Assembly (NCBI RefSeq): GCF_003333305.1
Contig: NZ_QOLD01000020.1
Coordinates: 1-64,000, forward strand
Length of the DNA stretch: 64,000 nucleotides
Reading direction: 5' to 3'
From: Candidatus Colwellia aromaticivorans
GTDB taxonomy: Bacteria; Pseudomonadota; Gammaproteobacteria; Enterobacterales; Alteromonadaceae
Shown: piece after piece, positions 22,354 through 49,837 of the stretch
Layout: each line of letters opens with the position of its first letter
Numbering within the stretch: the stretch's first letter is position 1
Translations under genes and position numbers: made by a program
The notes under the pieces: model-generated
Databases searched by the model: none
Told to the model about the DNA's origin: nothing
What the model saw: the letters and a program-made list of their open reading frames with translations, nothing else

Positions 22354-22615
22354 TACCCGCTCCACTTGAAGATGCTCGTTTCAGGAAGTCTGAGCGATTC
22401 ATAATCAAGACACATTTTTTATTAAGGGTTATTCCCTTAAAAATAAATGTAACGCAGAGTATGATTTGCTCAGCCTTCCCCAAAGGGCTGGTTTAGAAAC
22501 GCTTTATGCTGCGTTATTGATTTTGAGAAGGAAATAACCATTCTCTTCAATCAATACCTTGCCTAAAGGCGTTTCTAATTCCAGCTGAATCATGCATCTT
22601 CAAGTGGAGCGGGTA
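22354..22615. mobile_element. Family B MITE-like element, copy 1
   Basis: 262 bp with perfect 22-bp terminal inverted repeats (TACCCGCTCCACTTGAAGAT plus GC) and TA on both sides (22352-22353, 22616-22617), the duplication expected for IS630/mariner-type transposition. It has no coding capacity. Inside, on the minus strand, lies the shared core (AAGGTATTGATTGAAGAGAA, then TGGTTATTTCC and AAAATCAATAACGC), enclosed by a stem AGAAACGC/GCGTTTCT. It ends 35 bp before the truA start, so it lies in the truA 5' region. Confidence 0.8.
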
Positions 22616-22685
22616 TATATCCAACTTATACAAGTGGCGCATTATCTATTATTTTACTTCGCTATGCCAACGCTTGTTAAACATA

Positions 22686-22944
22686 TACCCGTAATCATTC
22701 AAAGTGCTCGATTCAGAGTACTTGAGCAATTTCAGTTTGAGGCGCGTCAATTAAATCATGGTATTCCCTATTTCTTTGGCGCAACAATAAAATGGGATTG
22801 CTCAAGTGCTTCTCCGATGGGGCTAAAAACGATTTACACTGCCTTATTGATTTTGACAAGGGAACAACCATTCTCCGCAATCAATACCTTGTTTAAATCG
22901 TTTTTTTCTCCCACTGAAACCTGCACTTTGAATGGTCACGGGTA
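22686..22944. mobile_element. Family B MITE-like element, copy 2
   Basis: 259 bp, 70 bp from copy 1. Ends are TACCCGTAATCATTCAAAGT and its near-perfect inverse ACTTTGAATGGTCACGGGTA, with flanking TA on both sides (22684-22685, 22945-22946). The internal core is recognisable in the same place but is enclosed by a different stem, AAAAACGATTTA (near 22827-22838) pairing with TAAATCGTTTTT. The right end lies 17 bp from the fimV stop codon. Both elements separate fimV from truA. Confidence 0.78.
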
Positions 22945-22961
22945 TATACCCATTGAATTAA

Positions 22962-25900
22962 CTATAAGTTATCTAACAATTCTTGCGCTACAACTTGTTG
23001 TTGAGTATCTCCTTGCTTAACAACCTCTTCTAAAATCACCAGAGCATTGTCTTGATCACCAATTTCAATATAAACTTTGGCTAGATCGAGCTTTGCAGCC
23101 ATACCATTCTCATCAATATCTACGTCAACCTGATTAACGCCATCGGTAAATTCTGAAAATTCATTTAAACCAACATCAATGTTAGCTTTATCATAAGGCT
23201 CATTCGGGCTTACTTCATATTGACTTTCTGACAATAATGAATCTACAGAGACAAAATCTTGTTCATTTTCAGTCGTTTGATTATTGTCATTTAGAGGATT
23301 ATTTGAGGTGAGATTGTCGAAATCTGCAAGAGAAACATCATCGACAACACCTAAGTTTTCATTGAAATCAACAGACTGGCTAGCAACACTAGATTCTTCT
23401 TCAATATTTGCTAATAGTTCATCAAAATCTAAACTGTCTAATTCTTGAATATCATTTATTTCAGTAGCTTCAGATACTTGGCTAATATCGTTATTTTCAT
23501 CATTAAGTAAACCTGCAAGAACATTCTGATCAGAAAAGTCAGGTGTTAATTCAACAGCTGGCTCTGTCGATTGATCGTTTAATAACTCAGCAAGTGTATC
23601 TTCATCAAACGCCCCTTCTGCTAAGTCATCGCCAATATCAAAATCATCATTAGCGAAATCTTCTTGTGAAGCATCTGCTTCTATAAGATCTGTCTCTGTT
23701 TTTACTAATATATCACTAAAGTCAGTGGCTAACAGAGGTGCTAGATATTCCTCAGTCAAGCTGTCAATCTTAGCCTTATTTTGGTTTTCCTCTGGTTTTA
23801 CGTTTTCTTCATCAACAGCTTTTTTTTCAGAATTATTATCACTTTCTAAACCTACAACATCCATCGAGGCTAGCAAAGCATCAATATCATCGGGATCGGT
23901 AATTTCGGTTTGAGCATTATCACCTTCTGATGGTTCTTCTTTAACTAAAGGCGCTTCATCTATCGCCATTGAATCAAGCAAGGCATCAATATCATCGGGA
24001 TCGGTAATTTCGGTTTGAGCATTATCACCTTCTGATGGTTCTTCTTTAACTAAAGGCGCTTCATCTATCGCCATTGAATCAAGCAAGGCATCAATATCAT
24101 CGGGATCGGTTATTTCGGTTTGAGCATTATCACCTTCTGATGGTTCTTCTTTAACTAAAGGCGCTTCATCTAACGCCATTGAATCAAGCAAGGCATCAAT
24201 ATCATCGGGATCGGTTATTTCGGTTTGAGCATTATCACCTTCTGATGGTTCTTCTTTAACTAAAGGCGCTTCATCTATCGCCATTGAATCAAGCAAGGCA
24301 TCAATATCATCGGGATCGGTTATTTCGGTTTGAGCATTATCACCTTCTGATGGTTCTTCTTTAACTAAAGGCGCTTCATCTATCGCCATTGAATCAAGCA
24401 AGGCATCAATATCATCGGGATCGGTTATTTCGGTTTGAGCATTATCACCCTCTGATGGTTCTTCTTTAACTAAAGGAACTTCATCTAACGCTATTGAATC
24501 AAGCAAGTCATCAAGATCTACTTCCTCTATGCTTGAGAGCTCTGCATCTTCAACGACTAACTCATCATCACCAAGGTCACCAAGTAAATCATCAAGATCA
24601 CTTTGATCAAGTTGATCATCGACTAGTGCTTCACTTTCTTTAGCTTCTTGCTCTTCAATTGCTAAGGGCTCTTCAAGAGCATCATCTTCCATCAATAAAG
24701 AATCAAGCGCATCTTGTCCTAACTCCCCTCCTTCAAGTTCATCATCGTCATCTAATAAAATATCTTCTAAATCATCAAGACCATCTAAAAGATCGTCATC
24801 GTCTTCATCTAGGTGAACGACATCATTTTCACTATTGTCTTCTTCCTCAAGTAAGTCAATTGATAAGTCATCATCAAGAGAAATCTCACCTTCTAAAGAT
24901 AATTCATCATCAAGAGAAATCTCACCTTCTAAAGATAATTCATCATCAAGAGACAGCTCATCCTCTAAAGATAATTCATCTATTTCGTCTATATTAGCTT
25001 TTGGTTCTTTTGATATATTTTCAGATTTAACTTTAGATTTTTTATTAGGCTTACTTTCCGCTGTAATCGTCTCTGTTTTACGTCGTTTAAAAATAAGCGC
25101 AACAACGAACAAAATTAAAATAGCAGGTAACGTTGACATTAAAACAACAAACCATAGACTTGAAAAAATATTATTTTTTTCTAATGCTGCTTGCTGTTTT
25201 TCTAATAATAGCTCTTGTTCTCTCGCTTGTGCTTTTTCTAATAGTGCTTGCTGCAACTTGATCATATCATCCATTTGCAGCTTAATTTCTTTTCCTTTAG
25301 CAACCTCTTTTTGCATAGTACCTAATTGACTGTTGAATGAAGTTAACCTCTGACGTAAGTCTTCATTTTCTTTTAAAATGGCTTGTAAACCATCAATAGA
25401 ATCTAAAACATCATTTTGAATATTTGTTAAACGCTTTTGCTGTTCATCATCTATTTTTTGAAGTTGATCATTTATTTCAACTTTTACAGTATCTAAATCT
25501 TTTTTGTTAACGCTAGGTACTTGTGGTGTTATAGCTTTCTTAGCTACCTTTTTAGGCTGTTTTTTCTGCCAATCTTTATCATCTTGATTAGACTTTTGTC
25601 TTGCAGCATTTTTATTCACAGACATCATGCGATCAAATGATGGAATTTTTAAATATTGTCCTTGGACCAAATGGTTAAAATTACCATTAACAAATGAATT
25701 AGGGTTAGCTTGATACAAGGCTTGCATTACTTGATAAACACTTAAGCGGCTATCAGGGCGAACCGTTAATGCTATTTTCCATAACGTATCCCTTTGTGTA
25801 ATTGGCCCATATCTATCATAAGGGAAAACATCTGTACTTTTTGGGCCACGCATACGAATGCCGCGTTCTTGTGTTTGCACTTCTTGTGCAAATGCAGATT

Positions 25901-25991
25901 CGCTTAAGGAGAGAGTACTAATAGAGAATACACTAACAGTGAATATACCAAGAACAACCTGCCATAGGCACAGGCGTAATAATTTTTGCAT
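22962..25991 (-). CDS. fimV: FimV-like polar hub protein with tandem acidic repeats
   Basis: A peptidoglycan-binding inner-membrane scaffold that in relatives organises type IV pilus, chemotaxis or flagellar poles. A signal peptide (about 1-35) precedes a LysM-type domain (TQRDTLWKIALTVRP... to YLKIPSF, about 65-125). A coiled coil follows (about 160-270), then one membrane segment (SSLWFVVLMSTLPAILILFV, about 275-300) and a very acidic cytoplasmic part. The last 45 residues (KLDLAKVYIEIGDQDNALVILEEVV) are the conserved FimV C-terminal TPR-like domain. The acidic part contains six 35-residue repeats. 1009 aa. The truA-fimV-asd order is as in Pseudomonas. Base use is ordinary. Confidence 0.93.
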   Translation of the reverse strand: MQKLLRLCLWQVVLGIFTVSVFSISTLSLSESAFAQEVQTQERGIRMRGPKSTDVFPYDRYGPITQRDTLWKIALTVRPDSRLSVYQVMQALYQANPNSFVNGNFNHLVQGQYLKIPSFDRMMSVNKNAARQKSNQDDKDWQKKQPKKVAKKAITPQVPSVNKKDLDTVKVEINDQLQKIDDEQQKRLTNIQNDVLDSIDGLQAILKENEDLRQRLTSFNSQLGTMQKEVAKGKEIKLQMDDMIKLQQALLEKAQAREQELLLEKQQAALEKNNIFSSLWFVVLMSTLPAILILFVVALIFKRRKTETITAESKPNKKSKVKSENISKEPKANIDEIDELSLEDELSLDDELSLEGEISLDDELSLEGEISLDDDLSIDLLEEEDNSENDVVHLDEDDDDLLDGLDDLEDILLDDDDELEGGELGQDALDSLLMEDDALEEPLAIEEQEAKESEALVDDQLDQSDLDDLLGDLGDDELVVEDAELSSIEEVDLDDLLDSIALDEVPLVKEEPSEGDNAQTEITDPDDIDALLDSMAIDEAPLVKEEPSEGDNAQTEITDPDDIDALLDSMAIDEAPLVKEEPSEGDNAQTEITDPDDIDALLDSMALDEAPLVKEEPSEGDNAQTEITDPDDIDALLDSMAIDEAPLVKEEPSEGDNAQTEITDPDDIDALLDSMAIDEAPLVKEEPSEGDNAQTEITDPDDIDALLASMDVVGLESDNNSEKKAVDEENVKPEENQNKAKIDSLTEEYLAPLLATDFSDILVKTETDLIEADASQEDFANDDFDIGDDLAEGAFDEDTLAELLNDQSTEPAVELTPDFSDQNVLAGLLNDENNDISQVSEATEINDIQELDSLDFDELLANIEEESSVASQSVDFNENLGVVDDVSLADFDNLTSNNPLNDNNQTTENEQDFVSVDSLLSESQYEVSPNEPYDKANIDVGLNEFSEFTDGVNQVDVDIDENGMAAKLDLAKVYIEIGDQDNALVILEEVVKQGDTQQQVVAQELLDNL
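23878..24507 (-). repeat. Six 105-bp in-frame tandem repeats in fimV
   Basis: Six copies starting at 23878, 23983, 24088, 24193, 24298 and 24403 are almost identical in DNA. Differences are mostly a change such as tatcgcc/taacgcc or gtaatt/gttatt. Each encodes 35 residues including DDIDALLDSMAIDEAPLV and KEEPSEGDNAQTEITDP. A second, shorter set of repeats (SLDDELSLEGEI) lies near 24860-24970. The near identity points to recent expansion or ongoing homogenisation by slippage or recombination. Confidence 0.95.
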
Positions 25992-26106
25992 TGCAATTTT
26001 CCTAGTTAATATTTTCCATAAAATTAGCTATTTGTCAGTTATTTGACATCATTAAGGTGATAGATAAACATACAAATTTAAGCAAAATTCATTCCATCTT
26101 ATATAA
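25992..26106. other. Upstream region of fimV
   Basis: AT-rich 115 bp between the fimV start and the first mini-element. No gene. It should hold the fimV promoter (minus strand), but no convincing -35/-10 pair could be fixed. Confidence 0.4.
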
Positions 26107-26151
26107 TACCAATTGAATAAATGAATAGATCATTCATTTTTTCATTTGGTA
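26107..26151. repeat. 45-bp mini-element of family A type
   Basis: TACCAATTGAATAAATGAA at the left and TTCATTTTTTCATTTGGTA at the right form an inverted pair, and TAA flanks both sides (26104-26106, 26152-26154). Only termini are present, with no core. It lies about 50 bp left of the large nested A/B element, in the intergenic space upstream of fimV. Confidence 0.6.
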
Positions 26152-26201
26152 TAAGTCTGAAATTAGTGAATAAATAATAATACCAAATTCAAAAGAGATT
26201 A

Positions 26202-26859
26202 TACCAATTGAATTAATGAATGCACCACTTAGCGAGAATTAAAAGGCTTCCTTCGACAAGCTCAGGACCGACGAAGGCAAGGCATTGATTGAAGAGAATG
26301 GTTATTCAGGAGAATGTGCTCCTGCATTCTCCACAAAAGCTACATCCATGTAGCGTCCTTGTCAAAATCAATAACGCCGCCTGTAAGCCTTTACCTTTTA
26401 TTAGGTACTCGCCCTTCGGGAGTTTCGTAGCAAACTGATAACATCACAAAATGAATGAAATATAGAATAACTATGTTTAACTCATTTCGTTTGTTCTATA
26501 CCCATGTTACTTCAATATGTCGGATTCAGCTGGAGTTAGAAACGCCTTTAGGCAAGGCTTTGATTGAAGATAATGGTTGTTCAGGATAATGTGCTCCTGC
26601 ATTATCTAATAAGCTACATCCATGTAGCGCCATTGTCGAAATCAATAACGAAGCATAAAGCGTTTCTAAACCAGCCTTACAGGGGCCCCTGATCAAATCA
26701 TGTTCTTCGTTGCATCTCTTTTTAAGGGAACGACCCTTAATAAAAAGATGCGCCTTGACCATGAATCGTTCAGCTGCCCTGAAACGCACATCTTGAAGTA
26801 TCATGGGTATAAGCTCGCTACGTAACTCTAAGTTGGTCGATTCATTATTTCAATTGGTA
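26202..26859. mobile_element. Family A MITE-like element interrupted by a nested family B element
   Basis: Ends TACCAATTGAATTAATGAAT and ATTCATTATTTCAATTGGTA, flanked by TTA at 26199-26201 and 26860-26862. Apart from the nested insert (26499-26809) and a block of about 50 bp near 26310-26360, it matches the intact copy at 48290-48586 almost base for base. The core stem here is AAAGGCTT/AAGCCTTT. It has no coding capacity. The element lies between fimV and asd, and its right end is about 30 bp from the asd terminator. Confidence 0.85.
26499..26809. mobile_element. Family B MITE-like element, copy 3, nested with TA duplication
   Basis: Starts TACCCATGTTACTTCAATAT and ends ATCTTGAAGTATCATGGGTA, 22-bp inverted repeats with two mismatches. 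TA flanks both sides (26497-26498, 26810-26811). Removing the element and one TA restores TTGTTCTAAGCTCG, exactly the sequence at the same place in the intact family A copy at 48.5 kb. The apparent long frame inside it on the minus strand is fortuitous. Confidence 0.88.
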
Positions 26860-26885
26860 TTACTCCATTTTTGAGAAATAAAACA

Positions 26886-26937
26886 AAAAAAACTCGTCGT
26901 TATCATTATTACTAATGTTAACGACGAGTTTTAAAGT
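26886..26937 (-). terminator. Terminator downstream of asd
   Basis: AACTCGTCGTTA (26891-26902) pairs with TAACGACGAGTT (26919-26930) over a 16-nt loop. On the minus strand the stem is followed by a run of eight T (26883-26890). A shorter T-run on the plus side could make it bidirectional. Confidence 0.88.
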
Positions 26938-26968
26938 TTCTTGAGCTTTCTTTAACTAAACGGCTTAG

Positions 26969-27988
26969 TTAGCTTAAGTGATCTTTAATCAATAATTCCG
27001 CAATTTGAACACTATTTGTTGCCGCACCTTTACGCACGTTATCGGCAACTATCCACATATTTATGCCACAATTATGGCTAATATCTTCACGAATACGACC
27101 AACAAAAGTGTCATCTTTACCACTTGCATCACTAATTTGTGTAGGGAAGTCTTCGTCTTTATGACAAACTACTAACCCCGGAGCTTGTGCTAATAACTCT
27201 TTAACTTCTTCAGCAGAAATAGGAGAATTAGTTTCAATATGTAAAGCCTCACCATGACCAAAAAATACTGGCACACGAACAGCGGTAGGGTTTACCAAAA
27301 CATTATCATCACATAATATTTTCTTCGTTTCCCATACCATTTTCATTTCTTCTTTGGTGTAACCATTTTCAAGAAAAACATCAATTTGTGGAATAACGTT
27401 AAACGCTATTTGGCGTGAAAAGTTTTTTGTTTCAACAGGCTTACCACTTAATAAATCAGCAGTTTGCTTAGCTAACTCATCCATTGCAGCTTTACCACCG
27501 CCAGAAACTGACTGATAAGTACACACGTTAACACGGCTAATTCCTACCGCATCATAAATAGGCTTTAATGCCACCAGCATTTGAATGGTAGAACAATTAG
27601 GGTTAGCAATAATATTGCGATTGCGGTATTCACCTAATGCTTGTGGATTTACTTCTGGTACAACTAATGGAATATCGTCGTCATAACGAAACTCTGAGGT
27701 ATTATCAATAACGATACAGCCAGCTTCGCCTGCAATAGGTGCATATTTTGCTGAGGTAGCGCCACCAGCAGAGAAGAAACCAATTTGCGCTTGGCTCCAA
27801 TCAAAATTATCTGCATCAAGCACTTCAATGCTTTCGCCATTAAATTCAATAAATTCACCAGCAGAGCGAGCACTTGCTAATGGATATAGTTTATTAATTG
27901 GGAAATCTCTTTCTTCTAAAATTTCCATAATGGTTTTGCCAACTAGCCCGGTTGCGCCAAGTATGCATACATCAAATTTTTGTGCCAT
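26969..27988 (-). CDS. asd: Aspartate-semialdehyde dehydrogenase
   Basis: NADP-dependent conversion of aspartyl phosphate to aspartate semialdehyde, the branch to lysine/diaminopimelate, threonine and methionine. The N-terminal Rossmann motif is GATGLVGKTIMEIL (11-24), the catalytic Cys is 132 in ANPNCSTIQM, and the catalytic His is in FFGHGEALHIE. These residues mark a genuine enzyme and not the inactive Usg paralogue found at this locus in enterobacteria. 339 aa, in the fimV-asd-pdxB order. It has its own terminator. Confidence 0.94.
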   Translation of the reverse strand: MAQKFDVCILGATGLVGKTIMEILEERDFPINKLYPLASARSAGEFIEFNGESIEVLDADNFDWSQAQIGFFSAGGATSAKYAPIAGEAGCIVIDNTSEFRYDDDIPLVVPEVNPQALGEYRNRNIIANPNCSTIQMLVALKPIYDAVGISRVNVCTYQSVSGGGKAAMDELAKQTADLLSGKPVETKNFSRQIAFNVIPQIDVFLENGYTKEEMKMVWETKKILCDDNVLVNPTAVRVPVFFGHGEALHIETNSPISAEEVKELLAQAPGLVVCHKDEDFPTQISDASGKDDTFVGRIREDISHNCGINMWIVADNVRKGAATNSVQIAELLIKDHLS

Positions 27989-28037
27989 GATCCTCTCTCT
28001 TTACTTTTGTTTAAATTAAGTAGTTTTCACTTAAAAT

Positions 28038-29171
28038 CTAAGCGCTACTGAAACCTAAGCGATGTGGCACACCGCTATAGGCGTTAAATGACGAAGTTAC
28101 TTGCACTGCTGAAAACTCCCTGCGAATTGGGTAGTTTTTTCTAAGAGCATCGAAACCTTGACTTGATAATTGGTGACGAAAAATAGCATCGTCCCGTCTA
28201 ACATCGTAAACCATTTTTACTAACTGGTTTAGTACTATTTCATTAAATTCTTTATTTAATTCTACAGATGAAATACTAGCTATAGGTAGAAGTGTTGTTA
28301 ACTGACATACAGGCTCAATATTAATATGTTGGCATAATGCCTGATATAGCATTTCTGTACCACGCGCTTTTCCTTCTAAGCTATAACCTGCTATATGGGC
28401 TGTAGCTATTTCGGTATAGTCTATAAGTGGTGTTAATACCTCTGGCTCACCTTCCCATACATCTAATACTAATTTAACTCCATGGCCTGATTTTTTTAGC
28501 GCAAGTAAGGCGTGATTATCTATGACCTCACCACGACAAGCACTGATCAATATTTGTTCATCTTTTAAATTACTTAACCGAGTCTCATCTATTAGATGAT
28601 AGGTAGGATATTCACCACCCATAACTTTAGGTACATGCAATGAAATAACATCACACTCAAGCACCTCCTCTAATGATACAAACTTTCTTATATCCTTTGG
28701 GGCAGAGGCAAGTAGCGGATCACAAATTTTGTATTGAATACCTAATGCTGATAACTTTTCACTTAAACGAGTACCCGTGTTTCCGCCACCAACAATCCCT
28801 ACACTGAGCTTTGTTAAATCAAATAAATACCGTTCAGCTAAAACAACTAAGGCACTAATAACATATTCGGCAACCGAAACTGCATTACAACCAGGAGCTG
28901 AATGAAAAGTAACATCACGATCAGCAAGATAAGCTTGATCTATGTGATCTGTACCTATAGTGGCAGTACCAACGAAGGTTATATTTTGATTTTTATGTAA
29001 TAGCGCTTCATCAACCTGAGTAATTGAGCGCACTAATAACACGTCAGCATCAAGGACTTGCTCAGGGGATAAATCTCGACCTGAAAAAGGTATTAACTTA
29101 GTATCATTGACAACTAAATCATTAAAAAACTCTTTAGCGTAAGGCATATTTTCATCGAAAAGTATTTTCAT
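28038..29171 (-). CDS. pdxB: Erythronate-4-phosphate dehydrogenase
   Basis: The second step of DXP-dependent pyridoxal phosphate synthesis, oxidising 4-phosphoerythronate. A D-2-hydroxyacid dehydrogenase fold is seen, with the start MKILFDENMPYAKEFF. The NAD motif is VGIVGGGNTGTRL, the catalytic Arg is in ISACRGEVID, and the Glu/His pair lies in DVWEGEP and TAHIAGYSLEGKARG. The C-terminal PdxB-specific dimerisation domain is present. 377 aa. It lies 49 bp upstream of asd. Confidence 0.95.
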   Translation of the reverse strand: MKILFDENMPYAKEFFNDLVVNDTKLIPFSGRDLSPEQVLDADVLLVRSITQVDEALLHKNQNITFVGTATIGTDHIDQAYLADRDVTFHSAPGCNAVSVAEYVISALVVLAERYLFDLTKLSVGIVGGGNTGTRLSEKLSALGIQYKICDPLLASAPKDIRKFVSLEEVLECDVISLHVPKVMGGEYPTYHLIDETRLSNLKDEQILISACRGEVIDNHALLALKKSGHGVKLVLDVWEGEPEVLTPLIDYTEIATAHIAGYSLEGKARGTEMLYQALCQHINIEPVCQLTTLLPIASISSVELNKEFNEIVLNQLVKMVYDVRRDDAIFRHQLSSQGFDALRKNYPIRREFSAVQVTSSFNAYSGVPHRLGFSSA

Positions 29172-29233
29172 TGATGCTTAAAGCTATTAGATGATTGGGA
29201 GGTTTCGCGTATTATACTCAGTTTATTTGCCAT

Positions 29234-29272
29234 AAAAAAGCCATGTGGATCAATTTATCTCACATGGCTTCA
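29234..29272 (-). terminator. Terminator of fabB
   Basis: AAGCCATGTG (29238-29247) pairs with CACATGGCTT (29261-29270). Read on the minus strand it is followed by a T-run (29234-29239). It lies between fabB and pdxB and separates their transcripts. Confidence 0.85.
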
Positions 29273-29355
29273 TTTGAACTCTTAATTTAAACTCTTAACT
29301 TGAACTTTTGTGTGCTTAAACTTAACATTCGAAATTCAACACTGACAAAGCATCA

Positions 29356-30570: not shown

Positions 30571-30674
30571 TTAAATAACCATTATTATAATAAGAAAATT
30601 TCAAAAATCGGACATATCATTATACTTAACTTAGCCCCCAAACTGGTATTACTAGTTAGCTAACCTAGTAAACC

Positions 30675-30692
30675 AGCGTACACATGTACGCT
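30675..30692. promoter_or_regulatory. FabR-like operator upstream of fabB
   Basis: AGCGTACACATGTACGCT has 8-bp arms around a CA centre. It closely resembles the GCGTACA/TGTACGC palindrome bound by FabR, the TetR-type repressor of fabA and fabB in gammaproteobacteria. It lies about 105 bp before the fabB start and about 45 bp upstream of a TATAAT hexamer (near 30626-30631, minus strand). Recognition is from memory of the motif. Confidence 0.6.
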
Positions 30693-32214: not shown

Positions 32215-32291
32215 CGAATGAAATGAATGAAATATAAAATCTTATCGACGGTCTTTTATTAACATATAAATGAGTAAAAGAAGATAATTTA

Positions 32292-37957: not shown

Positions 37958-37967
37958 AACCTAGCCC

Positions 37968-40628: not shown

Positions 40629-43420
40629 TAAACATTAACCTCTTTTTTAGGTGCATTAACCGTTAATTGACCGAGGCTCGCCAAAATCATTAATGTCGCA
40701 CCAACAACCGTAATATAAACACCTACATCAAATACCAATGCACTAGCGAGTTCAATTTCCCCAATCAAAGGAATATCAAAATAATCAAACCAAGTGGTCA
40801 TGAAAGGTCTGCCAAAGAACCAACTGCCAACCCCTGTAAATAACGCGATAGCAATTCCTGACGCAATAATCTTGCGGTAATTTATCGTTAACCGCTCAGC
40901 AATCCAATTTGAGCCATGCGCTATATACTGCAAAATAAACGCCACTGCGGTCACCAAACCTGCGATAAACCCACCGCCAGGGAGATTGTGTCCACGTAAG
41001 AAAATATAAAACGACACCATTAATGCCAAAGGCAGTAATGACTGAGAAATACTGGCTAATAATACCGGGTAACGCTCTTTCGCCCATGGCCGCCCTTCAC
41101 TATCACTGGTTGGCATAAACAATGGTAAGTTGATTAATAACTTGTAAATACCTAAAGCAGCAATGCCCAGTACGCAAATTTCACCTAAGGTATCAAAACC
41201 ACGAAAATCCACCAAAATAACATTAACAACGTTAGTACCACCGCCCCCTGTTTTAGCATTGGCTAAGAAAAAGTCCGAGATTGATTCAAGTGGACGGGTA
41301 ATTAATGCATAACAAATACTCGCAACAACAATACCCAAGCCAGCTGAAATCCCTACGTCACGAAGCACACGCATAGAGCTAGACTCTCTTGGCGAGTGCT
41401 GTGGTAAGAAAAACAATGCCAACATAAGTAAAATAATAGTAACTACTTCTACCGTTAATTGCGTTAATGCTAGATCCGGTGCAGAAAACCGAGTAAACGC
41501 GACAGACACCATTAAACCCACAACTGAAATCATCAACAATGATACCACTCGTTTGCGATACCAAATCACAGTACAAATTGCACCAACCATTAACAACGCT
41601 GCGCCCATCGCATTATGAACATCAATTGGCGTCAGTTGTTTTTGCCCACTTAACTGATTCATTTCAAATAATGGCCAACCAGCAAAAAGTAACACAACCA
41701 GAAATATCAACATTAAATAACGTTGTAAAGAGCCATTTTCTATGGCGTTTATTTTAAGCTGACACCAGGTTGTTATGGCAGACATTGCGCCATCGAAGGC
41801 CTTTTTAGCATTTAAAGAAGGCAGTGACTCTTGGAATTTGTATAGATGTCGTCGCTGTGCGTACAGAAATAAGCCACCACCTACTGCAAAGGCGCTCATC
41901 AATAGAGGTAAGTTAAAACCGTGCCATAGCGCAACCTTAAATTCTGGTACGTAACCACCGAGAACAGCAAAAGATGCCGCCTTTAAAATATCATCAATAA
42001 TAAAGTTTGGAAATATTCCTACAAGTAAACATAAAGCTACAAGTATCTCAATTGGCACTCGCATATAACGAGGCGGCTCACTAGGCTGTTTGGGTAAATC
42101 AATGGGATCGCCATTAAAGAAAACATCATGAATAAAGCGCGCTGAATAAGCCACGGCTAAAGCGCCAGCAACAGTTGCCAACACAGGAATAAGCCAAGAC
42201 ATAGAGCCAAGTAGCTGTTGATGTAGCGTCTCAGCAAAAAACATTTCTTTAGACAAGAAGCCATTTAACAGTGGCACACCTGCCATCGCTGCTGCTGCAA
42301 CCATTGCCAAGGTAGCCGTGTAAGGCATAAATCGCCACATGCCGTTGAGCTTTCTCATGTCACGCGTACCGGTTTCATGGTCAATAATGCCCGTTGCCAT
42401 AAACAAAGAGGCTTTAAATGTTGCATGATTAATGATATGAAAAATGGCTGCTACTGCCGCAAGCTTAGTATCCAAACCAAATAATAAGGTGATCAAACCT
42501 AAATGGCTGATGGTCGAATAGGCTAATAAACCTTTTAAATCATGTTTAAATAACGCGATATAAGCGCCAAACAATAATGTCGCGAGTCCGGTTAAACTAA
42601 CAATAATAAACCATATGTCAGTACCGGCTAAGGCTGGGTAAAAACGCGCTAATAAGAAGATCCCCGCTTTTACCATTGTGGCCGAGTGCAGATAAGCACT
42701 TACCGGTGTTGGCGCCGCCATCGCATGTGGTAACCAAAAATGAAAAGGAAATTGTGCTGATTTAGTGAACGCGCCAAGTAATATTAAAATTAAGGTGACT
42801 TCGTACCAAGCATGCGCCTGAATAATTTCTCTGCTGGCTAAAATAACATCTAAATTGTAACTACCAACGATATTACCCAATAAAAGCAAGCCAGCCAATA
42901 ATGCTAAACCGCCACCACCAGTTACAGTTAAGGCCATGATTGCGCCTTTACGTGCTTCGGGTTTATGCCACCAATAACTAATTAACAAAAACGAGCTAAT
43001 ACTGGTAAGTTCCCAAAAAAACCAGAGCTGAATGACATTGTTTGACATAACAATACCAAGCATTGCTGTCATAAATAACATCAAATACGCATAAAGCTTA
43101 GGCATGGAGTCATTACTACTTAGGTAATAACGGGCATAAAAGATAACTAATATACCAATCCCTAATATCATAAAAACAAATAACAGCGCTAAGCCGTCTA
43201 AACGAAAAGCAATATCTACACCTAATAAAGGGATCCACGAAAATGTTTCACGGATAACCTCACCAGAAAATACTGCTGGCGCTAAGCTAATCGTCATTAA
43301 TAAGGCGATGATCGGCATTAACATCGTCAACCTTGTCGATTGGTTACGAGTTAACTTACCCGTCATTGAAGAAATAATACTGCCAAGTAAGGATAACAAG
43401 GGTATCCAAAGCAAAGTCAT
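40628..43420 (-). CDS. mrpA: Na+/H+ antiporter subunit A, fused to subunit B
   Basis: 930 aa. The first 480 or so residues are the NuoL-like pump, with [53 protein letters not shown] and [21 protein letters not shown] MrpA C-terminal extension follows, then from about residue 790 a MrpB-type domain ([24 protein letters not shown]). The operon therefore has no separate mrpB, the group 2 gene order A(B)-C-D-E-F-G. It exports Na+ and regulates internal pH. It is the first gene of the operon. 43421-43702 upstream is AT-rich and is presumed to hold the promoter, though I could not pick a clear one. Confidence 0.95.
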
Positions 43421-43702
43421 AGAGTAAACCTTATTTATTTTTCTTATTAGAAGTCATGGTATCGAGAGATATTGCCATATTATGTCAAATCATATAGCAC
43501 TGGCAAACATTATCACTCTGAAAATTTGTAACGATATTACCACGAAGTAACACAATAATTAGCACTAAAGTCTAATGAAAATTCGGACTTTTCACTTATT
43601 AACGTCGAAAATTCAAATAAACTGTCTATTTTCACTAGTTATACTAGTGTCAGCACCCGTGTTAAGTGTAGTATTTAGCCTAATGATGCGTTAATAGGCT
43701 TA
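43421..43702. other. Upstream region of the mrp operon
   Basis: About 280 bp without a gene frame between mrpA and a family A element. It contains a palindrome-like CACTAGTTATACTAGTG (43636-43652) that could be an operator. I see nothing else. Confidence 0.4.
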
Positions 43703-43966
43703 TACCAAGTCTATTAAGTTATTTCCTGCTCAGCGAGAATTAAAAGGCTAAGAGGCAAGGCTTTAATTAAAGATAATGGTTATTCCCTTATCAAAATAAA
43801 TAACGCAGCATATAAGCCTTTTAAACTCGCCCTCCGGGAGCTTATTAGCAAACTGATAACATCGCAAAATTGGTAAAATATAGAATAACTATGTTTAATC
43901 AATTTCACTTGTTCTAAGCTCACTAATAGTAGCTCTGAGCTGGGAATAAATTTAATAGAATTGGTA
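43703..43966. mobile_element. Family A MITE-like element abutting the Lrp-type gene
   Basis: 264 bp. Ends TACCAAGTCTATTAAGTTAT and AAATTTAATAGAATTGGTA, flanked by TTA (43700-43702, 43967-43969). Core GGCAAGGCTTTAATTAAAGA plus TAATGGTTATTCCC and AAATAACGC, with enclosing stem AAAAGGCT/AGCCTTTT. The right TTA is followed directly by the AGG ribosome-binding site of the regulator gene. Confidence 0.8.
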
Positions 43967-43979
43967 TTACAGGTACCTG

Positions 43980-44444
43980 ATGAAAAAACTCGACAATATA
44001 GACCTTCGTATTTTAACTCTCTTGTATAATGATGCTGATATCACTAATAAAGAATTAGCCGCTAAAATAGGTATTGCCCCATCAACTTGTTTAGAGCGAG
44101 TTAAACGCCTTAAACAAAATGGGGTAATTAAAGGCGCTTTTATTGATGTTAACTTAAAGATCATCGGTGGAAATATTGAAGCCATTGCCGCCATTCGTTT
44201 ACAGCCTTATTCTGAAGAAATTGTAAATAAATTTCGCGATGACTTATTAAGATACCCAGAGATATTAAACCTTTATCATATGGGTGGCAGTTACGATTAT
44301 TATATTCACATGTCAGTACAAGACAGCGAACATTTACGTCAGTTTGTTTTTAAAAAAATCACATCGCGTGATGAAGTTACCACGGTGGAAACTTCATTAG
44401 TATTTGAACATAGCCGCAGTGGTGTATTGCCTGATTTTCAATAA
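43980..44444 (+). CDS. Lrp/AsnC-family transcriptional regulator
   Basis: 154 aa with an N-terminal helix-turn-helix (LDNIDLRILTLLYNDADITNKELAAKIGIAPSTCLERVKRL, about 3-43) and a C-terminal RAM ligand-binding domain (VTTVETSLVFEHSRSG). It resembles small Lrp-type feast/famine regulators, and its ligand and targets are unknown. AGG lies 6 bp before ATG 43980. The gene begins 10 bp after the target duplication of a MITE-like element, so its native promoter has either been displaced or is supplied by the element. Confidence 0.88.
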   Translation: MKKLDNIDLRILTLLYNDADITNKELAAKIGIAPSTCLERVKRLKQNGVIKGAFIDVNLKIIGGNIEAIAAIRLQPYSEEIVNKFRDDLLRYPEILNLYHMGGSYDYYIHMSVQDSEHLRQFVFKKITSRDEVTTVETSLVFEHSRSGVLPDFQ

Positions 44445-44460
44445 GAATAACCCTCGTTAT

Positions 44461-45783
44461 TTAATTTCGATTTTTCGCTATTCTCGAATGATTTCTTTTT
44501 GTTGATGCTCCTTTACGGTTTGAGGCTTTATGGCTTGAAGCTTTAGTTGCTCGGTGCTGCTCTTTTCTTACCGATGATGCAACACGCTTATTTGGTTTTG
44601 GCTTTTGTTTTCTTTTTTGCTGACTTATTTGGCGACTCTGCTTATGTTGATGAGAACTTGTACTTCGCGGTTTCTGGTGCAACGCTGAATGTTTAGAAAC
44701 TTGACGAGACTTCACTTTATTGTGCTTTACCTTATGACTAGCCTTATGACTAGCCTTATGACTAGCCTTATGACTAGCCTTATGATTAACTTTATTCTTA
44801 GGGTTATATTTTGCTTTGTACTGTGACTTATTGGCAGCGTGTAACCTTTGTTTAATTTTATGATGACTGCTTTTTAATTGCTTGTTAACACGGTGAGCAC
44901 CTACACGCTTACTGTAATATTTTTCACTGGTTCGTTTAGTTCGATAAGCAACGCCTTTTCGATGAGAAGGTTTATGCGACCAACGTTTTGCGTAACCACC
45001 ATTAGCAACTAAACGACGCGGGCGCTGATGATAATAACGATAATGACCACGATTGGGGTTAACGACCACCACATGACGATTGTGCCAATGAACAGCGCTA
45101 AAAAAATAATTAAAAGTAATATGAACGCCGGTATGCCAATAAAAAGGACGGTAATGACTTACATATACATTGCGATACGGACGCCAATAAACCGGTGGAT
45201 AGGCTGACCAATACCATGAACCATAGACCATACGAGAGTCATAGTAAGGCACATACACAACCTCTTTTTCTCGCGACAAAATACTAATATTATTATCTTG
45301 ATAGTCAATATCCATATTGTTCATTTTTTTAAGGCTGCCTGCTAACTTAGCCTGTTTTCTTAACGTTTGAATACTTAGCAACAATCGTGATTCATCTTGC
45401 AAAAAAGCATCACCAAGCACTTGTGTCCAACTTAAATCTTCACTTAATCGGCTCAAAACACGCTCAAATGGAATTAACGCTTTGACACTGGCGTCCCAAT
45501 TAAAATTGTCTATTAACTCCTTCTTTTGCCCAGTACTTAGATTGTCATTTTTTTTCAACCAACGGTGGGCTTCGATAATTTCAATGGGGTAAGTTGAAGC
45601 AATTAAAATATGTGTTAATAAACTGTCGGGGTACAAAGCAATAGGCGCCAGCATTTGAGCCAGCTCTGCATCGCTAAATGTTTGCTCTTCTTGCTCAGCT
45701 ATTGTGGTAAAACTTACCAACATACTGACAACTAGGCTTAGATAAAATATGATGTTTTTCATTATGATGATCCTTATAACCAA
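44461..45783 (-). CDS. DUF3300 exported basic protein with KASH repeats
   Basis: The likely start is ATG 45762 (MKNIIFYLSLVVSMLVSFTTIAEQ), a signal peptide. The DUF3300 domain follows (AELAQMLAPIALYPDSLLTHILIASTYPIEIIEAHRWL... to about 190). An aromatic and His-rich stretch (YWSAYPPVYWRPYRNVYVSHY) and a very basic low-complexity tail rich in K, H, S and R make up the rest. Residues KASH repeat four times in succession. Function of the family is unknown; the product is probably periplasmic or secreted. It ends 16 bp from the convergent Lrp gene. Confidence 0.8.
   Translation of the reverse strand: MVIRIIIMKNIIFYLSLVVSMLVSFTTIAEQEEQTFSDAELAQMLAPIALYPDSLLTHILIASTYPIEIIEAHRWLKKNDNLSTGQKKELIDNFNWDASVKALIPFERVLSRLSEDLSWTQVLGDAFLQDESRLLLSIQTLRKQAKLAGSLKKMNNMDIDYQDNNISILSREKEVVYVPYYDSRMVYGSWYWSAYPPVYWRPYRNVYVSHYRPFYWHTGVHITFNYFFSAVHWHNRHVVVVNPNRGHYRYYHQRPRRLVANGGYAKRWSHKPSHRKGVAYRTKRTSEKYYSKRVGAHRVNKQLKSSHHKIKQRLHAANKSQYKAKYNPKNKVNHKASHKASHKASHKASHKVKHNKVKSRQVSKHSALHQKPRSTSSHQHKQSRQISQQKRKQKPKPNKRVASSVRKEQHRATKASSHKASNRKGASTKRNHSRIAKNRN
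44729..44784 (-). repeat. 12-bp tandem repeats encoding KASH in the DUF3300 gene
   Basis: The 12-bp unit CTTATGACTAGC (plus-strand reading) repeats four times without change, giving K-A-S-H units, with a partial fifth. Codon identity shows very recent expansion and not selection on diverged copies. Confidence 0.85.
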
Positions 45784-45885
45784 TTACTCGTTATAAGAAT
45801 ATCAATAGTAAACTGAACGCAAGCTGAACAATCATAGCTGTTATCATTCACGTGCAGAGTTTTAGTGAGAATTAGAAGGTAAGAA

Positions 45886-47259
45886 TTAGAATGTGAGAAT
45901 AAAAGCAGCGCCACCTAGTAATGTGGAAGTGCTAATAGCTAATTGCCCTTGATAACTACTAACCAAATCTCGCACAATGGCTAGGCCAATGCCGTGGCCT
46001 GCATGATAAGTGTCAGCTCTTGTTCCTCGCGCTAGAATAGCTTGTTGTTTCGATGCTTCAATGCCAACACCATCATCTTCAACGGTTATGGTCAATTGTT
46101 TATCGTTGCCCTTTACAGTAACCGTAACTGCAAATTTTGCAGCCTTACAAGCGTTGTCTACAACATTACCTAGCATTTCCATCAAATCAGCTTCATCGCC
46201 CTTAAATAAAGCGCTTTTATCAATATTAACAGTAAAGCGTAATTGCTTCTCTTGATAAATTTTCATCAAGCTAGCGATAAGTTTGTCTAATACTGGTTTC
46301 ACCGAGACCCCTAAATGCCATGAAGACTCACCAGCACTTTGTGCTCTTTTTAATTGATGTTCGATGATATTATTAATCAAACTAATTTGCTGACGGGCAT
46401 CTTTTGATAAGTTTGCTTCGCTTTGCATAATAGCCAATGGATTTTTTAAACTATGCGCTAAATCAGATAAGGCATTGCGATAACGTTTACGTTGATTCTG
46501 TTCAGTTAATAACAACGTATTTAGCTGTGAGGTAACTTGCTGTAATTCGAGTGGGTAATGTGCGTTTAATGCATTCTTCTTACCTTGCTCTATATTCGCC
46601 AGCTCATGGGCTAACACTTTTAACGGCTTCAATGTCCACAGCAACCAAGCCACTTGAATCACTATAAACACTAACATTAAGGCAATAAGCCAGCTCCATA
46701 GTTGTTGTTTAAAATCATTTAGCGCAAGCAATAATTCTTTTTGATCTTTAATTAAATGTAAGGTGATAGGAAATGGCTGTGCATTATCAGAAAAACTTAC
46801 ACTAAAGCTATAAAGTAAATGTTTTCTTCCTTCAAGCATAATAGAAGAGAAGGCACTTTCTCCGACTTTTGGTGACGGGATAAATTCAGCAGATAACGCC
46901 TGTATTGGCAGAGTTAATAATGATTGTGATTGCCATAATTTTTCTGCTCGAAAGTTTTGCTTAGGTAGCGAATAAATCAAGGCATATAAGCCAGATTGAC
47001 TGATATTAAATTGATTTTCCAACAGGTATTCAGGCATCAATAACTGACGTTCATCAACTTCTGCAACGGTTAGAATGGAGTAACTATAGGCGGTAAGTTC
47101 ATTTTTCATTGCAATACTTAACTGACGTTCAAAAGCCTGAGTTAACGTAAAACCAATAACAGGCAACATGACAATAGTCATCACTAAAGTACTTAATAGC
47201 ACCCGAATTTTTAATGAATTTATTTTCCAAAAGGGAGGCGTAATCGCTTTTGTTTCCAT
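45886..47259 (-). CDS. PhoQ-like sensor histidine kinase
   Basis: 457 aa. Membrane segment about 20-40, periplasmic sensor of about 140 residues, second membrane segment (LWSWLIALMLVFIVIQVAWLLW), HAMP-like linker, then a kinase core: H-box LAHSLKNPLAIM, N-box DLMEMLGNVVDNACKAA, G1 VEDDGVGIE and G2 GHGIGLAIVRDLV. The H-box Ser-Leu-Lys-Asn-Pro is typical of the PhoQ branch. Its start overlaps the response-regulator stop. The signal is unknown. Confidence 0.9.
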   Translation of the reverse strand: METKAITPPFWKINSLKIRVLLSTLVMTIVMLPVIGFTLTQAFERQLSIAMKNELTAYSYSILTVAEVDERQLLMPEYLLENQFNISQSGLYALIYSLPKQNFRAEKLWQSQSLLTLPIQALSAEFIPSPKVGESAFSSIMLEGRKHLLYSFSVSFSDNAQPFPITLHLIKDQKELLLALNDFKQQLWSWLIALMLVFIVIQVAWLLWTLKPLKVLAHELANIEQGKKNALNAHYPLELQQVTSQLNTLLLTEQNQRKRYRNALSDLAHSLKNPLAIMQSEANLSKDARQQISLINNIIEHQLKRAQSAGESSWHLGVSVKPVLDKLIASLMKIYQEKQLRFTVNIDKSALFKGDEADLMEMLGNVVDNACKAAKFAVTVTVKGNDKQLTITVEDDGVGIEASKQQAILARGTRADTYHAGHGIGLAIVRDLVSSYQGQLAISTSTLLGGAAFILTF

Positions 47260-47936
47260 TATTGACTTACGCGCTTTAATTTATAACCGTGCCCACGAAG
47301 CGTTTCGATAAAACCATAGTCGTTGTTAGGATCGAGTTTCTTGCGTAAACGACGAATAAATACTTCAATGACGTTAGAGTCTAAATCAAAGTCTTGATCA
47401 TAAATATGTTCAGTTAATAGCGCTTTCGATGTAACTTCATCAAGGTGCAACATCATGTATTCAAGTAATTTATATTCCGAACTACTTAATTTCACTACTT
47501 GGTTATTCACTTCAACAAGCAGGCTTTTAGTATTAATAGATAACGGGCCATTTTTTATTAGTGGGCTCGCCTGCCCTGCTGAGCGACGAATAAGTGCATT
47601 TAAGCGGGCAAGTAATTCTTCTGCGTGAAATGGTTTAGTCAGGTAATCATCGGCACCGGCATCTAAGCCAGCGACTTTATCTTGCCAGCTGTTACGTGCA
47701 GTTAGTACCAAAATAGGAAAGATTTTATTTTTTTCTCGTAAAGATTTAATAACACTAATACCATCAATAACGGGTAAACCAATATCAATTACCGCAGCAT
47801 CATAAGGGTATTCTAACCCCTGAAATAATCCTGTTTCACCATCGCTAGCAACATCAACCAAATAATTTGCCGCTAATAAATGTTTGTTTAAGTTTTGTTG
47901 TAGAGCAATGTCATCTTCTATAAGCAATAAACGCAT
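47259..47936 (-). CDS. PhoP/OmpR-type response regulator
   Basis: Receiver domain with the phosphoacceptor Asp in DAAVIDIGLPVIDG (about residue 51), acidic pair EDD at 7-9 and Lys in DYLTKPFH. The C-terminal winged-helix (SSSEYKLLEYMMLHLDEVTSK, then SNVIEVFIRRLRKKL) binds DNA. ATG 47936 is preferred because it gives the standard MRLLLIEDD start. A GTG 15 bp upstream overlaps the PepSY gene. It forms an operon with the kinase (one-base overlap) and the PepSY gene. Confidence 0.92.
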   Translation of the reverse strand: MRLLLIEDDIALQQNLNKHLLAANYLVDVASDGETGLFQGLEYPYDAAVIDIGLPVIDGISVIKSLREKNKIFPILVLTARNSWQDKVAGLDAGADDYLTKPFHAEELLARLNALIRRSAGQASPLIKNGPLSINTKSLLVEVNNQVVKLSSSEYKLLEYMMLHLDEVTSKALLTEHIYDQDFDLDSNVIEVFIRRLRKKLDPNNDYGFIETLRGHGYKLKRVSQ

Positions 47937-47940
47937 AATC

Positions 47941-48273
47941 TTATCGCCCACTTATTCGGCCAGACTTGGCATCAACAAAAACAGAAATAATATGACCATC
48001 TTTTTTAATCAGCTTAACTCTATAACCTGATTTTTGTGATTGCACCTTGAGTACTTTACCACCAAAACGTCTTTGAGCCAGTTGAGCCGCTTGTTTAGTA
48101 CTTTTAACCCGTACCTGCTGCTTACTAGTTTGCTGATTAGTTTTCATTGTGTTTATTGTTGCAGCGAAGTTTCCTTGAGCAACCGCGGGCACAGAAAAGG
48201 TAATCATAAAAGTAGTGACCAAAATAATAATTAAAGATAAAACAGATTTCATTATTTTTCCGAGTGCTGACAT
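47941..48273 (-). CDS. Exported PepSY-domain protein
   Basis: The signal peptide MKSVLSLIIILVTTFMITFSVPAVAQ starts at ATG 48252 (residue 8), the more likely start. The mature part ends in a PepSY domain (TKQAAQLAQRRFGGKVLKVQSQKSGYRVKLI... FVDAKSGRISGR). It is the first gene of the operon, ending 4 bp before the response regulator. Small PepSY proteins beside PhoPQ-like pairs are probably periplasmic modulators or targets. This role is inferred. Confidence 0.82.
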   Translation of the reverse strand: MSALGKIMKSVLSLIIILVTTFMITFSVPAVAQGNFAATINTMKTNQQTSKQQVRVKSTKQAAQLAQRRFGGKVLKVQSQKSGYRVKLIKKDGHIISVFVDAKSGRISGR

Positions 48274-48289
48274 TAATAGCTATAGCTTA

Positions 48290-48586
48290 TACCAATTGAA
48301 TTAATGAATGTACCACTTAGCGAGAATTAAAAGGCTTCCTTCGACAAGCTCAGGACCGACGAAGGCAAGGCATTGATTGAAGTGAATGGTTATTGCCCTT
48401 GTCAAAATCAATAACGCCGCTTGTAAGCCTTTACCTTTTATTAGGTACTCGCCCTTCGGGAGTTTCGTAGCAAACTGATAACATCACAAAATGAATGAAA
48501 TATAGAATAACTATGTTTAACTCATTTTGTTTGTTCTAAGCTCGCTACGTAAATCTAAGTTGGTCGATTCATTATTTCAATTGGTA
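48290..48586. mobile_element. Family A MITE-like element, intact copy
   Basis: 297 bp. Ends TACCAATTGAATTAATGAAT and ATTCATTATTTCAATTGGTA, flanked by TTA (48287-48289, 48587-48589). Nearly identical to the left and right parts of the interrupted copy at 26.2-26.9 kb, for which it provides the empty site. Core stem AAAGGCTT/AAGCCTTT. It lies in the space upstream of the PepSY operon and of the surface-protein gene. Confidence 0.87.
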
Positions 48587-48759
48587 TTATTAAAATAATA
48601 CCCCTTCGCAACTGAACATTCGCTGAACAGTAATTTAATACACACTAAATTCTCACTAAAAAGTTATGAATGCTTAAAATGTTCAGCTTGTATTCATCTT
48701 CATTACGCTCTAATAGCTTCAATAGCTTCAATAGCAGCAAATATTAATAGGACAATATT

Positions 48760-49563
48760 ATGAGTAAGGTGATGTTCAAAAAATTTATCAACAAGAGCGT
48801 TGTAGGCATATTTCTACTAGCAAACTTAATTGTTAGCAGCTACACAATTGCCGAAGAACAAACAAGTATTTCATTTGGGGAATTATCACAAAACCTTACT
48901 ACTGATATTAGGCTTGCCATTACCAAAGAAAATAGTGAGGCATCGATTGTTGACCAACACATTGGTAAAGCAACAGGTAAAACCAGAACAGAAATACTAG
49001 AAAATAAAATATCGAAAACCACATCATTCGCGCGTAGTAACAGCTACAACAACTATGCTGACTTTGCTATTTACGGTGCAACAACACTATTGCAAGATGA
49101 TTATGACGGAGATGGCTTTTACCAAACTTTTAGCGTTAGTTTTGATGCTGACATTTATAGTTATACTCCGAGCCAATTGGGTGAAGTGTATGCTTTATTG
49201 TATATAAGTAAAAATGGCGGACCTTGGACACATTACTACACCACTGACAACTTTCTTATAGAAGGCGATTCAGACTTAGATGAATATGAAGTAATAACTA
49301 CTTTTTTATCCGGTTATTCTGCTGATCATTACGATATATTAATTGATTTATACCAAGTAGGTTATAGCGATATTGTGGCAAGTTATAGCGCTGACGACAG
49401 TAATGCTTTATACGCTTTACCACTAGAAAGTGCCGATTATGATGAGCCCTATATAGAATATATAGAAGTTATTGAAATAAGCCACGGTGGCAGTTTTTCA
49501 ATAGTCATACTATTACTTTTTCTATTCATATATTCGGTTCGTACCGTAAATAGAAAATACTAA
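48760..49563 (+). CDS. Choice-of-anchor H family surface protein
   Basis: 267 aa. Signal peptide (about 1-31, ending SSYTIAEE). The middle part has the family blocks DYDGDGFYQTFSVSFDAD, VYALLYIS and YEVITTFLSGYSADHYDILIDLYQ. The C-terminus is a Gly-Gly, then hydrophobic helix and Arg/Lys tail (HGGSFSIVILLLFLFIYSV, then RTVNRKY), as in rhombosortase (GlyGly-CTERM) sorting signals. It is probably processed and displayed on the surface. AGGA lies 8 bp before the start. Function is unknown. Confidence 0.75.
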   Translation: MSKVMFKKFINKSVVGIFLLANLIVSSYTIAEEQTSISFGELSQNLTTDIRLAITKENSEASIVDQHIGKATGKTRTEILENKISKTTSFARSNSYNNYADFAIYGATTLLQDDYDGDGFYQTFSVSFDADIYSYTPSQLGEVYALLYISKNGGPWTHYYTTDNFLIEGDSDLDEYEVITTFLSGYSADHYDILIDLYQVGYSDIVASYSADDSNALYALPLESADYDEPYIEYIEVIEISHGGSFSIVILLLFLFIYSVRTVNRKY

Positions 49564-49573
49564 TTTTTAATAA

Positions 49574-49837
49574 TACCAAGTTGATTAAGTTCTTTCCCAC
49601 TCAGCGAGAATTAAAAAGCTTAGAGGCAAGGCATTGATTGAAGAGAATGGTTATTCCCTTATCAAAATCAATAACGCAGCATGTAAGCTTTTTAAACTCG
49701 CCCTTTGGGAACTTGCTCGATGCCCACTAACATCGTTAAATTAATTTGATTTAGAGTGACTAGATCTAAATAAATTTGCCTTGTTATTGAACATCGAGCA
49801 TAGCTCTGAGTTGGGAAGAAATTTAATCAAATTGGTA
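49574..49837. mobile_element. Family A MITE-like element between the surface-protein gene and dnaJ
   Basis: 264 bp. Ends TACCAAGTTGATTAAGTTCT and AAATTTAATCAAATTGGTA, flanked by TAA (49571-49573, 49838-49840). Core GGCAAGGCATTGATTGAAGA plus GAATGGTTATTCCC, then AAAATCAATAACGC, with enclosing stem AAAAAGCTTA/TAAGCTTTTT. It begins 10 bp after the upstream gene's stop codon. Confidence 0.82.

Follow-up and report, generated by a model that had tools for sequence, protein, structure and literature searches.

Why should two families of small mobile elements with different ends carry the same internal structure? This question is raised by seven miniature inverted-repeat transposable elements (MITEs) within positions 1 to 64,000 of contig NZ_QOLD01000020.1 of Candidatus Colwellia aromaticivorans, a 64-kb stretch that was analysed as a whole and is called the window below. 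An original prediction, made from the letters of the window, assigned four elements to a family A with TTA/TAA target duplications and three to a family B with TA duplications. It described in each a core closed by stems whose sequence differs while pairing is kept, and proposed selection on a fold. All seven elements are found where they had been placed, with the two kinds of duplication, and the core sequences and closing stems read as quoted. We show here that each long hairpin of these elements is a conserved single-strand fold, with near-fixed lengths, an internal loop of CAAGGC opposite AACGCnG, an apical loop and covarying stems.

One hairpin architecture in both families

The original prediction gave each element a single core. 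This core is real, but five of the seven elements, from both families, hold two convergent hairpins of one model (Table 1): with a covariance model built from 29 diverse hairpins, the second of two models used in this work, the window yields 12 matches at E ≤ 0.1. The nested B element splits the second hairpin of the A element at 26202, and for the B element at 22686 no second match to this model was found at E ≤ 0.1. The three B elements in the window measure 262, 259 and 311 bp, and two of them carry two hairpins.

The general plan of an element is a terminal inverted repeat, a hairpin, usually a short CCC-NNN-GGG hairpin, an inverted second hairpin and the other terminal inverted repeat. 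Two-hairpin elements measure about 265 bp and one-hairpin forms about 160 bp. Each long hairpin has an outer stem, CAAGGC and AACGCnG at a distance of usually exactly 40 nt, and G-TTRTT-C as its apical loop. The spacing between CAAGGC and AACGC is exactly 40 nt in 275 of 325 unique hairpins, although 37-43 nt were permitted, and none of these motif hairpins was left after a single mononucleotide shuffle of each locus (325 versus 0). Among neighbouring hairpins at most 140 nt apart in the fetched loci, 35 of 36 are convergent, and in 31 of 35 convergent pairs the two cores lie 54-57 nt from each other. A CCC-NNN-GGG centre stands between the cores in 29 of the 35 pairs, and in 29 of the 31 with this spacing. 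TNC and GNA together account for 74 of its 86 loops from distant genera and for 136 of 220 across all loci. A subtype in five genomes (G119, G229, G419, G430 and G446) replaces Watson-Crick pairs of the lower stem by G·A and A·G (GCGAGGAG..CGACGAGC), as expected from tandem sheared pairs.

Table 1 Elements and hairpins in the window, with flanking duplications of the elements and scores of the hairpins against the diverse-hairpin model
Feature	Position	Strand	Duplication or score
Family B element	22354..22615	.	TA, 22352-22353 and 22616-22617
Hairpin of the B element at 22354, core AATCAAGACAC..AACGCAG	22383..22482	+	69.2 bits, E 5.4e-16
Second, convergent hairpin of the B element at 22354 (core of the original prediction)	22485..22584	-	81.2 bits, E 3.1e-19
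Family B element	22686..22944	.	TA, 22684-22685 and 22945-22946
Hairpin of the B element at 22686, stem AAAAACGATTTA/TAAATCGTTTTT	22814..22914	-	79.6 bits, E 7.9e-19
Family A element, interrupted by the B element at 26499	26202..26859	.	TTA, 26199-26201 and 26860-26862
Hairpin 1 of the A element at 26202, 48-nt apical-loop insert	26255..26402	+	36.7 bits, E 3.4e-7
Family B element, nested in the A element at TA	26499..26809	.	TA, 26497-26498 and 26810-26811
Hairpin 1 of the nested B element, 48-nt apical-loop insert	26529..26678	+	63.5 bits, E 1.8e-14
Convergent hairpin 2 of the nested B element	26680..26780	-	63.3 bits, E 2.1e-14
Family A element	43703..43966	.	TTA, 43700-43702 and 43967-43969
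Hairpin 1 of the A element at 43703	43733..43833	+	89.4 bits, E 1.8e-21
Convergent hairpin 2 of the A element at 43703, weak	43835..43934	-	29.7 bits, E 2.8e-5
Family A element	48290..48586	.	TTA, 48287-48289 and 48587-48589
Hairpin 1 of the A element at 48290, arm inserts	48343..48442	+	47.2 bits, E 4.8e-10
Convergent hairpin 2 of the A element at 48290, weak	48457..48556	-	30.6 bits, E 1.5e-5
Family A element	49574..49837	.	TAA, 49571-49573 and 49838-49840
Hairpin 1 of the A element at 49574, stem AAAAAGCTTA/TAAGCTTTTT	49604..49704	+	98.7 bits, E 5.3e-24
Convergent hairpin 2 of the A element at 49574	49706..49806	-	71.2 bits, E 1.6e-16

The stems covary

The consensus fold comprises 34 pairs (RNAalifold, 29 ungapped sequences). 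Pairing is found in 87.5% of the cells, compared with 38-44% when partners are slid and a mean of 56% in shuffles; 340 cells are changed on both sides against a shuffled mean of 111, and the covariation score was reached by none of 500 shuffles. That 31 of the 34 pairs show any double change is weak evidence alone, because the shuffles average 28.5 such pairs and 29 of 500 reach 31. Under a tree-based null, applied with our own script that is modelled on the idea of R-scape and is not R-scape itself, 26 of 34 pairs are significant in a diverse set of 120 sequences and likewise in one of 88, which bears out the proposed selection on a fold. The covariation check that had been suggested, when restricted to the copies of this genome, gave 0 of 34 significant pairs (N = 58); these copies are insufficient for it because there is too little divergence among them. 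Other significant column pairs number 5 and 6 in the two diverse sets. The column pairs 6-94, 22-78 and 37-62 prolong modelled helices in both sets, while 43-56 and 37-60, plus 3-97 for N = 88, are off-register.

The loci were mostly fetched by covariance models, which reward pairing, and the regular expression for hairpins accepted a lower stem only with 5 or more Watson-Crick pairs out of 7. Because loci obtained in these ways favour pairing, hairpins were also retrieved with a pattern of conserved letters that fixes the closing G-C of the apical loop and nothing else in the two inner stems. This pattern matches 32 of 369 genomes of the class, its reversed control none of the 369. In 89 distinct sequences taken from those retrieved, Watson-Crick pairs fill 484 of 623 lower-stem cells and 333 of 445 upper-stem cells, together 817 of 1068 with the fixed closing pair excluded, whereas slid controls reach at most 201 of 623 and 205 of 445, respectively. 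G·T exceeds A·C by 95 to 15 in this set and by 28 to 7 after thinning to 25 clusters. Thus, hairpins retrieved by their unpaired letters still pair.

Complementary stems might also be maintained by mutation instead of selection, namely by template switching between the arms (quasipalindrome correction). Long near-perfect inverted repeats are known targets of this process, and many of the changes seen here are compensatory. However, template switching predicts neither the fixed lengths nor loops that are conserved across genera, and the excess of G·T over A·C, which is found in the hairpins and hardly in the terminal repeats, is not predicted either, although deamination of an extruded strand could add G·T. 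We consider it improbable that template switching accounts for the pattern.

One strand of each hairpin folds

The two wobble combinations distinguish the strands. G·T outnumbers A·C by 159 to 22 in the inner stems and by 297 to 130 in the outer stems, whereas the terminal repeats, counted in the same way, are near even (319 to 277). When each hairpin of a paired element is read on its own strand, the counts are 74 to 16 (29 hairpins) and 67 to 22 (28 hairpins). Since the wobbles are strand-specific, one strand of each hairpin folds, as single-stranded DNA or as RNA, and since both hairpins of a pair are biased, each is read on its own strand. The original prediction had left the choice between an RNA and a cruciform. 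A plain double-stranded cruciform, recognised symmetrically, would fit the palindromic architecture and the RNA folding energies, which were alike for both strands in the two window elements folded. It predicts no wobble bias, and the inner stems show a bias of 7 to 1 that is also present in both hairpins of a pair; we therefore regard the symmetric cruciform as very unlikely. The RNA alternative stays the main rival.

As a structured RNA, the element would be read through from either side with one correctly oriented hairpin each time, because its two hairpins are inverted. Such an RNA could protect, destabilise or insulate neighbouring transcripts or sequester an RNA-binding protein, so that insertions would be tolerable to the host. 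The strong one-strand tolerance of G·U-type pairs, the orientation independence given by the inverted pairing, and the combination of conserved loops with freely covarying stems, which is typical of RNA, all speak for this explanation. A cis-acting RNA would predict a preference for the sense orientation, and none was found. The orientation relative to genes was assigned for 96 of the 143 own-genome copies, with 26 sense, 31 antisense, 10 convergent and 29 divergent, and 34 one-hairpin copies from three genomes gave 5 sense and 12 antisense (tandem), 4 convergent, 6 divergent and 7 incomplete cases; these contexts are crude, being taken from the longest open frames and not from annotation. With 10 of 96 copies between convergent genes there is no enrichment at 3' ends. 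The lack of a preferred gene orientation tilts the balance, weakly, to a DNA signal, and we regard a structured RNA as a serious but on the whole doubtful explanation.

The cassette rides on different ends

The hairpins lie inside inverted repeats scoring at least 11 in 284 of 320 flanked cases, compared with 12 of 320 when the flanks are shuffled. Within an element the two arms are 86% complementary on average (34 of 35 paired elements), whereas the left arms of different elements have a median identity of 41% and a 90th percentile of 59%, against 38% and 44% for shuffled arms. At 60% identity, the arms of 34 paired elements fall into 13 clusters. Greedy grouping of the ends of 282 elements gives 45 groups, which is an upper figure because some groups are variants of each other. 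As arms match within elements and diverge between them, the cassette rides on different ends, in agreement with the idea of a structural cassette on unrelated transposon ends. That the ends of families A and B differ was also correct, although both families start with TACC (family A with TACCAA). A perfect TNA duplication flanks 58 of 88 readable copies of family A (27 TAA, 26 TTA, 4 TGA and 1 TCA), and TA is present on both sides of 58 of 66 readable copies of family B.

In 18 B-ended copies the hairpin 1 cassette is 103 nt long, and its identity to the closest of 22 A-ended copies is 62-95% (median 89%), while the ends differ; in one pair of A and B copies that illustrates this exchange, hairpin 2 differs too. 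Families A and B therefore share the sequence of hairpin 1 partly by exchange, and the cassette moves between families within Colwellia.

Like MITEs in general, the elements have terminal inverted repeats, a target duplication and many copies. Candidate empty sites were found for 3 of 231 flanked elements. In the clean case (locus L166) a B element sits at TA inside another B-type element, other copies of which lack the insertion; the looser cases are L044 versus L277, with a left flank 71% identical, and L125 versus L227, with a right flank 71% identical. Nesting also indicates mobility: TA is duplicated both in this B-in-B case and where the B element at 26499 entered the A element at 26202. 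We tentatively describe the elements as non-autonomous mobile elements of one architecture, a description that belongs to the explanation favoured below and shares its standing.

Occurrence in other genomes and replicons

The first model, built from 24 own-genome cassettes, has at least 148 matches in the own genome at E ≤ 1e-3, of which 143 were extracted; two pairs of these share their flanks exactly, at contig ends, and each pair may represent a single locus. It also matches in 63 of 99 genomes, including the own genome and all 38 congeners. With the second model at E ≤ 1e-5, matches occur in at least 123 of 369 genomes of the class and at least 110 of 398 genomes of the phylum, two samples that overlap and both include the own genome. 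All these figures are lower bounds, because 150 candidates were scored in the own genome, 11 per genome in the class scan and 10 per genome in the phylum scan. Named holders are records of Colwellia, Pseudocolwellia and Thalassotalea. Pseudoalteromonas plasmids carry the element in one case by the model and in four more by similarity, and plasmids of Azotobacter, Halomonas and Pseudomonas are holders by similarity; a plasmid search with one element from the class gave no match. The pattern occurs in 6 stretches of viral contigs and is thus not mainly a phage feature; phage records gave no match for the A element at 49574. An element with a Colwellia-type hairpin was also seen in a contig labelled uncultured Bacteroidetes (L218, CAJXVU010000055.1), which is possibly mis-binned.

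Comparison with known repeats

The original prediction considered that the cassette may be undescribed. No curated Rfam family matches it: none matched the elements of the window at the gathering threshold, and at E ≤ 0.1 nine loci gave one weak group II intron match, which lies outside the element. This result counts against a structured RNA. Literature searches found no description of the element either, although ERIC is a partial relative. Elsewhere in the window, Rfam places an int-alpA RNA (61440-61506) and a tmRNA (59577-59926), less than 2 kb apart, and a group II intron domain (230-399).

ERIC/IRU/RU-1 elements resemble family B in their TA duplication and in ends that read TATACCC.. 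One E. coli ERIC end, as printed in the excerpt of PMC2759123, is identical to family B ends at up to 21 of 26 positions in the genome. In the window its best value is 20 of 26, where the shuffled window gives 17 of 26; for the other ERIC end the two values are 18 and 17. In the E. coli consensus of the same excerpt CAAGGC faces AACGCAG, and folding it yields the loop signature of the hairpins described here. In contrast, ERIC has 127 bp and one hairpin with a longer inner part, whereas the three B elements of the window span 259-311 bp and two of them show two hairpins, and the duplication of family A is TNA and not TA. The Salmonella SeRU-1 entry in the excerpted table of PMC2759123 reads GAAGGC and folds differently from the hairpins described here. 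Two E. coli ERIC loci, from the same psuT-yeiL site in two strains, likewise read GAAGGC and fold differently, and they gave no match to the second model at E ≤ 1 with filters off. Judged by sequence, family B has ERIC-like ends; because the GAAGGC copies fold differently and the E. coli loci lack a model match, its hairpin pair is not ERIC.

The likeness to ERIC raises the possibility that one ancient ERIC-like element diverged, swapped hairpins by recombination and gained new ends, its fold having no present function. The related ends, the shared loop signature of the consensus and the hairpin exchange between A- and B-ended copies agree with such a descent. Descent alone, however, does not predict that loops and lengths are fixed across the class while stems and ends are near-random, and the ERIC copies that were examined fold otherwise. 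We think it rather improbable that the shared fold is only inherited.

Other repeats are more distant. According to the excerpt of PMC2229807, Correia/NEMIS elements are similar by description, being small and hairpin-forming with terminal repeats and a TA-ended target duplication; CIR elements of Caulobacter and Brucella also have two arms and a linker, but they are described there with a GANTC loop and no terminal repeat is listed. The pair of convergent hairpins in a non-autonomous element recalls REPIN/BIME, from which the elements differ by their terminal inverted repeats and target duplications. REPINs are about 100 bp long and have neither terminal repeats nor duplications, whereas here each hairpin alone measures about 100 nt and lies inside terminal repeats. 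In integron attC sites, which are recombined by IntI at the GTT core site, the structure of one folded strand matters more than the stem sequence. The elements might resemble attC in this principle, that folded-strand structure outweighs stem sequence, and we take the similarity as a lead only.

Insertions within the elements

The 48-nt insert in the apical loops of the copies at 26202 and 26499 forms two small hairpins. Its position in the loop is constant (GGTTATTC^C), and A as well as B backgrounds carry it: in the own genome it was found in 14 of 143 first hairpins and in 18 of 143 second hairpins (for example G000:C10:72085-72235). No duplication is visible with it, and on the antisense strand both of its hairpins have GGA loops. 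The insert may itself be mobile, with the exposed loop as its target. A longer insert in the second-hairpin loop of L089 and L107 was considered as its parent and rejected; it reads as a further insertion inside the 48-nt piece, cut by contig ends. Two GGA-loop hairpins that resemble the insert by eye are printed for Yersinia RU-2/YPAL in the excerpt of PMC2759123.

Two A copies of the window have a TTCGACAAGCTCAGG-type palindrome in the left arm, at about 26249-26279 (hairpin 1 of the copy at 26202) and about 48337-48367. Four of the 143 own-genome copies (G000:C90:132184, C99:25223, C6:50466 and C15:44794) carry a two-hairpin insert, CAGGTTCATAGTTCC.., in the left arm. Palindromes of the TTCGACAAGCTCAGG type are widespread in bacteria. 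The reverse complement of CAAGGCATTGATT fits the consensus WATCAANNNNTTR for IHF, but IHF cannot account for the conservation because the stem letters are freely variable elsewhere.

Discussion

We tentatively favour the explanation that the hairpins are a signal in a folded DNA strand that serves mobilisation or upkeep of the element. The end repeats would be duplex sites that are cut by a set of different transposases, and the hairpins would form a separate signal on the strand that runs inward from each end. This signal might be read only when the strand is single and folded, for instance in the wake of a replication fork or while a gap is being repaired after excision, and a conserved trans-acting protein could then recognise both loops, internal and apical, and help the element to be copied, repaired or maintained. 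A separate folded-strand signal would explain why the same hairpins occur on different ends and also why they form mirror-image pairs.

Several observations weigh against a DNA signal of this kind. Structured RNA also tolerates G·T-type pairs. The loop of the central CCC-NNN-GGG hairpin cannot tell RNA from DNA; its variants TNC and GNA are reverse complements, stable as RNA UNCG or DNA GNA. The wobble bias is weaker, with 17 to 6 in inner and 48 to 26 in outer stems, among the 63 Colwellia-type hairpins whose loci had been obtained with no covariance model. One-hairpin elements spread too, so that two hairpins are not required. No transposase or binding protein was found for the elements, and an autonomous partner was not apparent: by eye, the 100 of 211 end-repeat sites listed for the own genome included no pair with gene-length spacing, and neither did the 61 sites of genome G294, many of which lie at contig ends. 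In addition, transcripts of ERIC, the nearest relative known, affect mRNA decay, with orientation being crucial, as stated in excerpts of two reviews (PMC2229807, PMC10969869), which is in line with an RNA function.

In its widest form, the folded-strand explanation would extend to a transferable signal that is used across Pseudomonadota on dozens of unrelated transposon ends and acts as a pass read by a host protein, with ERIC as a reduced outlier. We consider this extension possible but speculative. ERIC and similar small repeats of bacteria have been known since 1990-1991. How they move is called unproven in the excerpt of a 2007 review (PMC2229807). The rigid fold with its invariant letters, present in about one third of the sampled genomes of the class, offers a concrete bait for the protein that would read it. 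The fold would also be evidence that one structural module can be common to small mobile elements whose ends are unrelated. If the explanation is true, the hairpins would be a shared pass by which a small element gets copied or tolerated, read by one conserved host protein.

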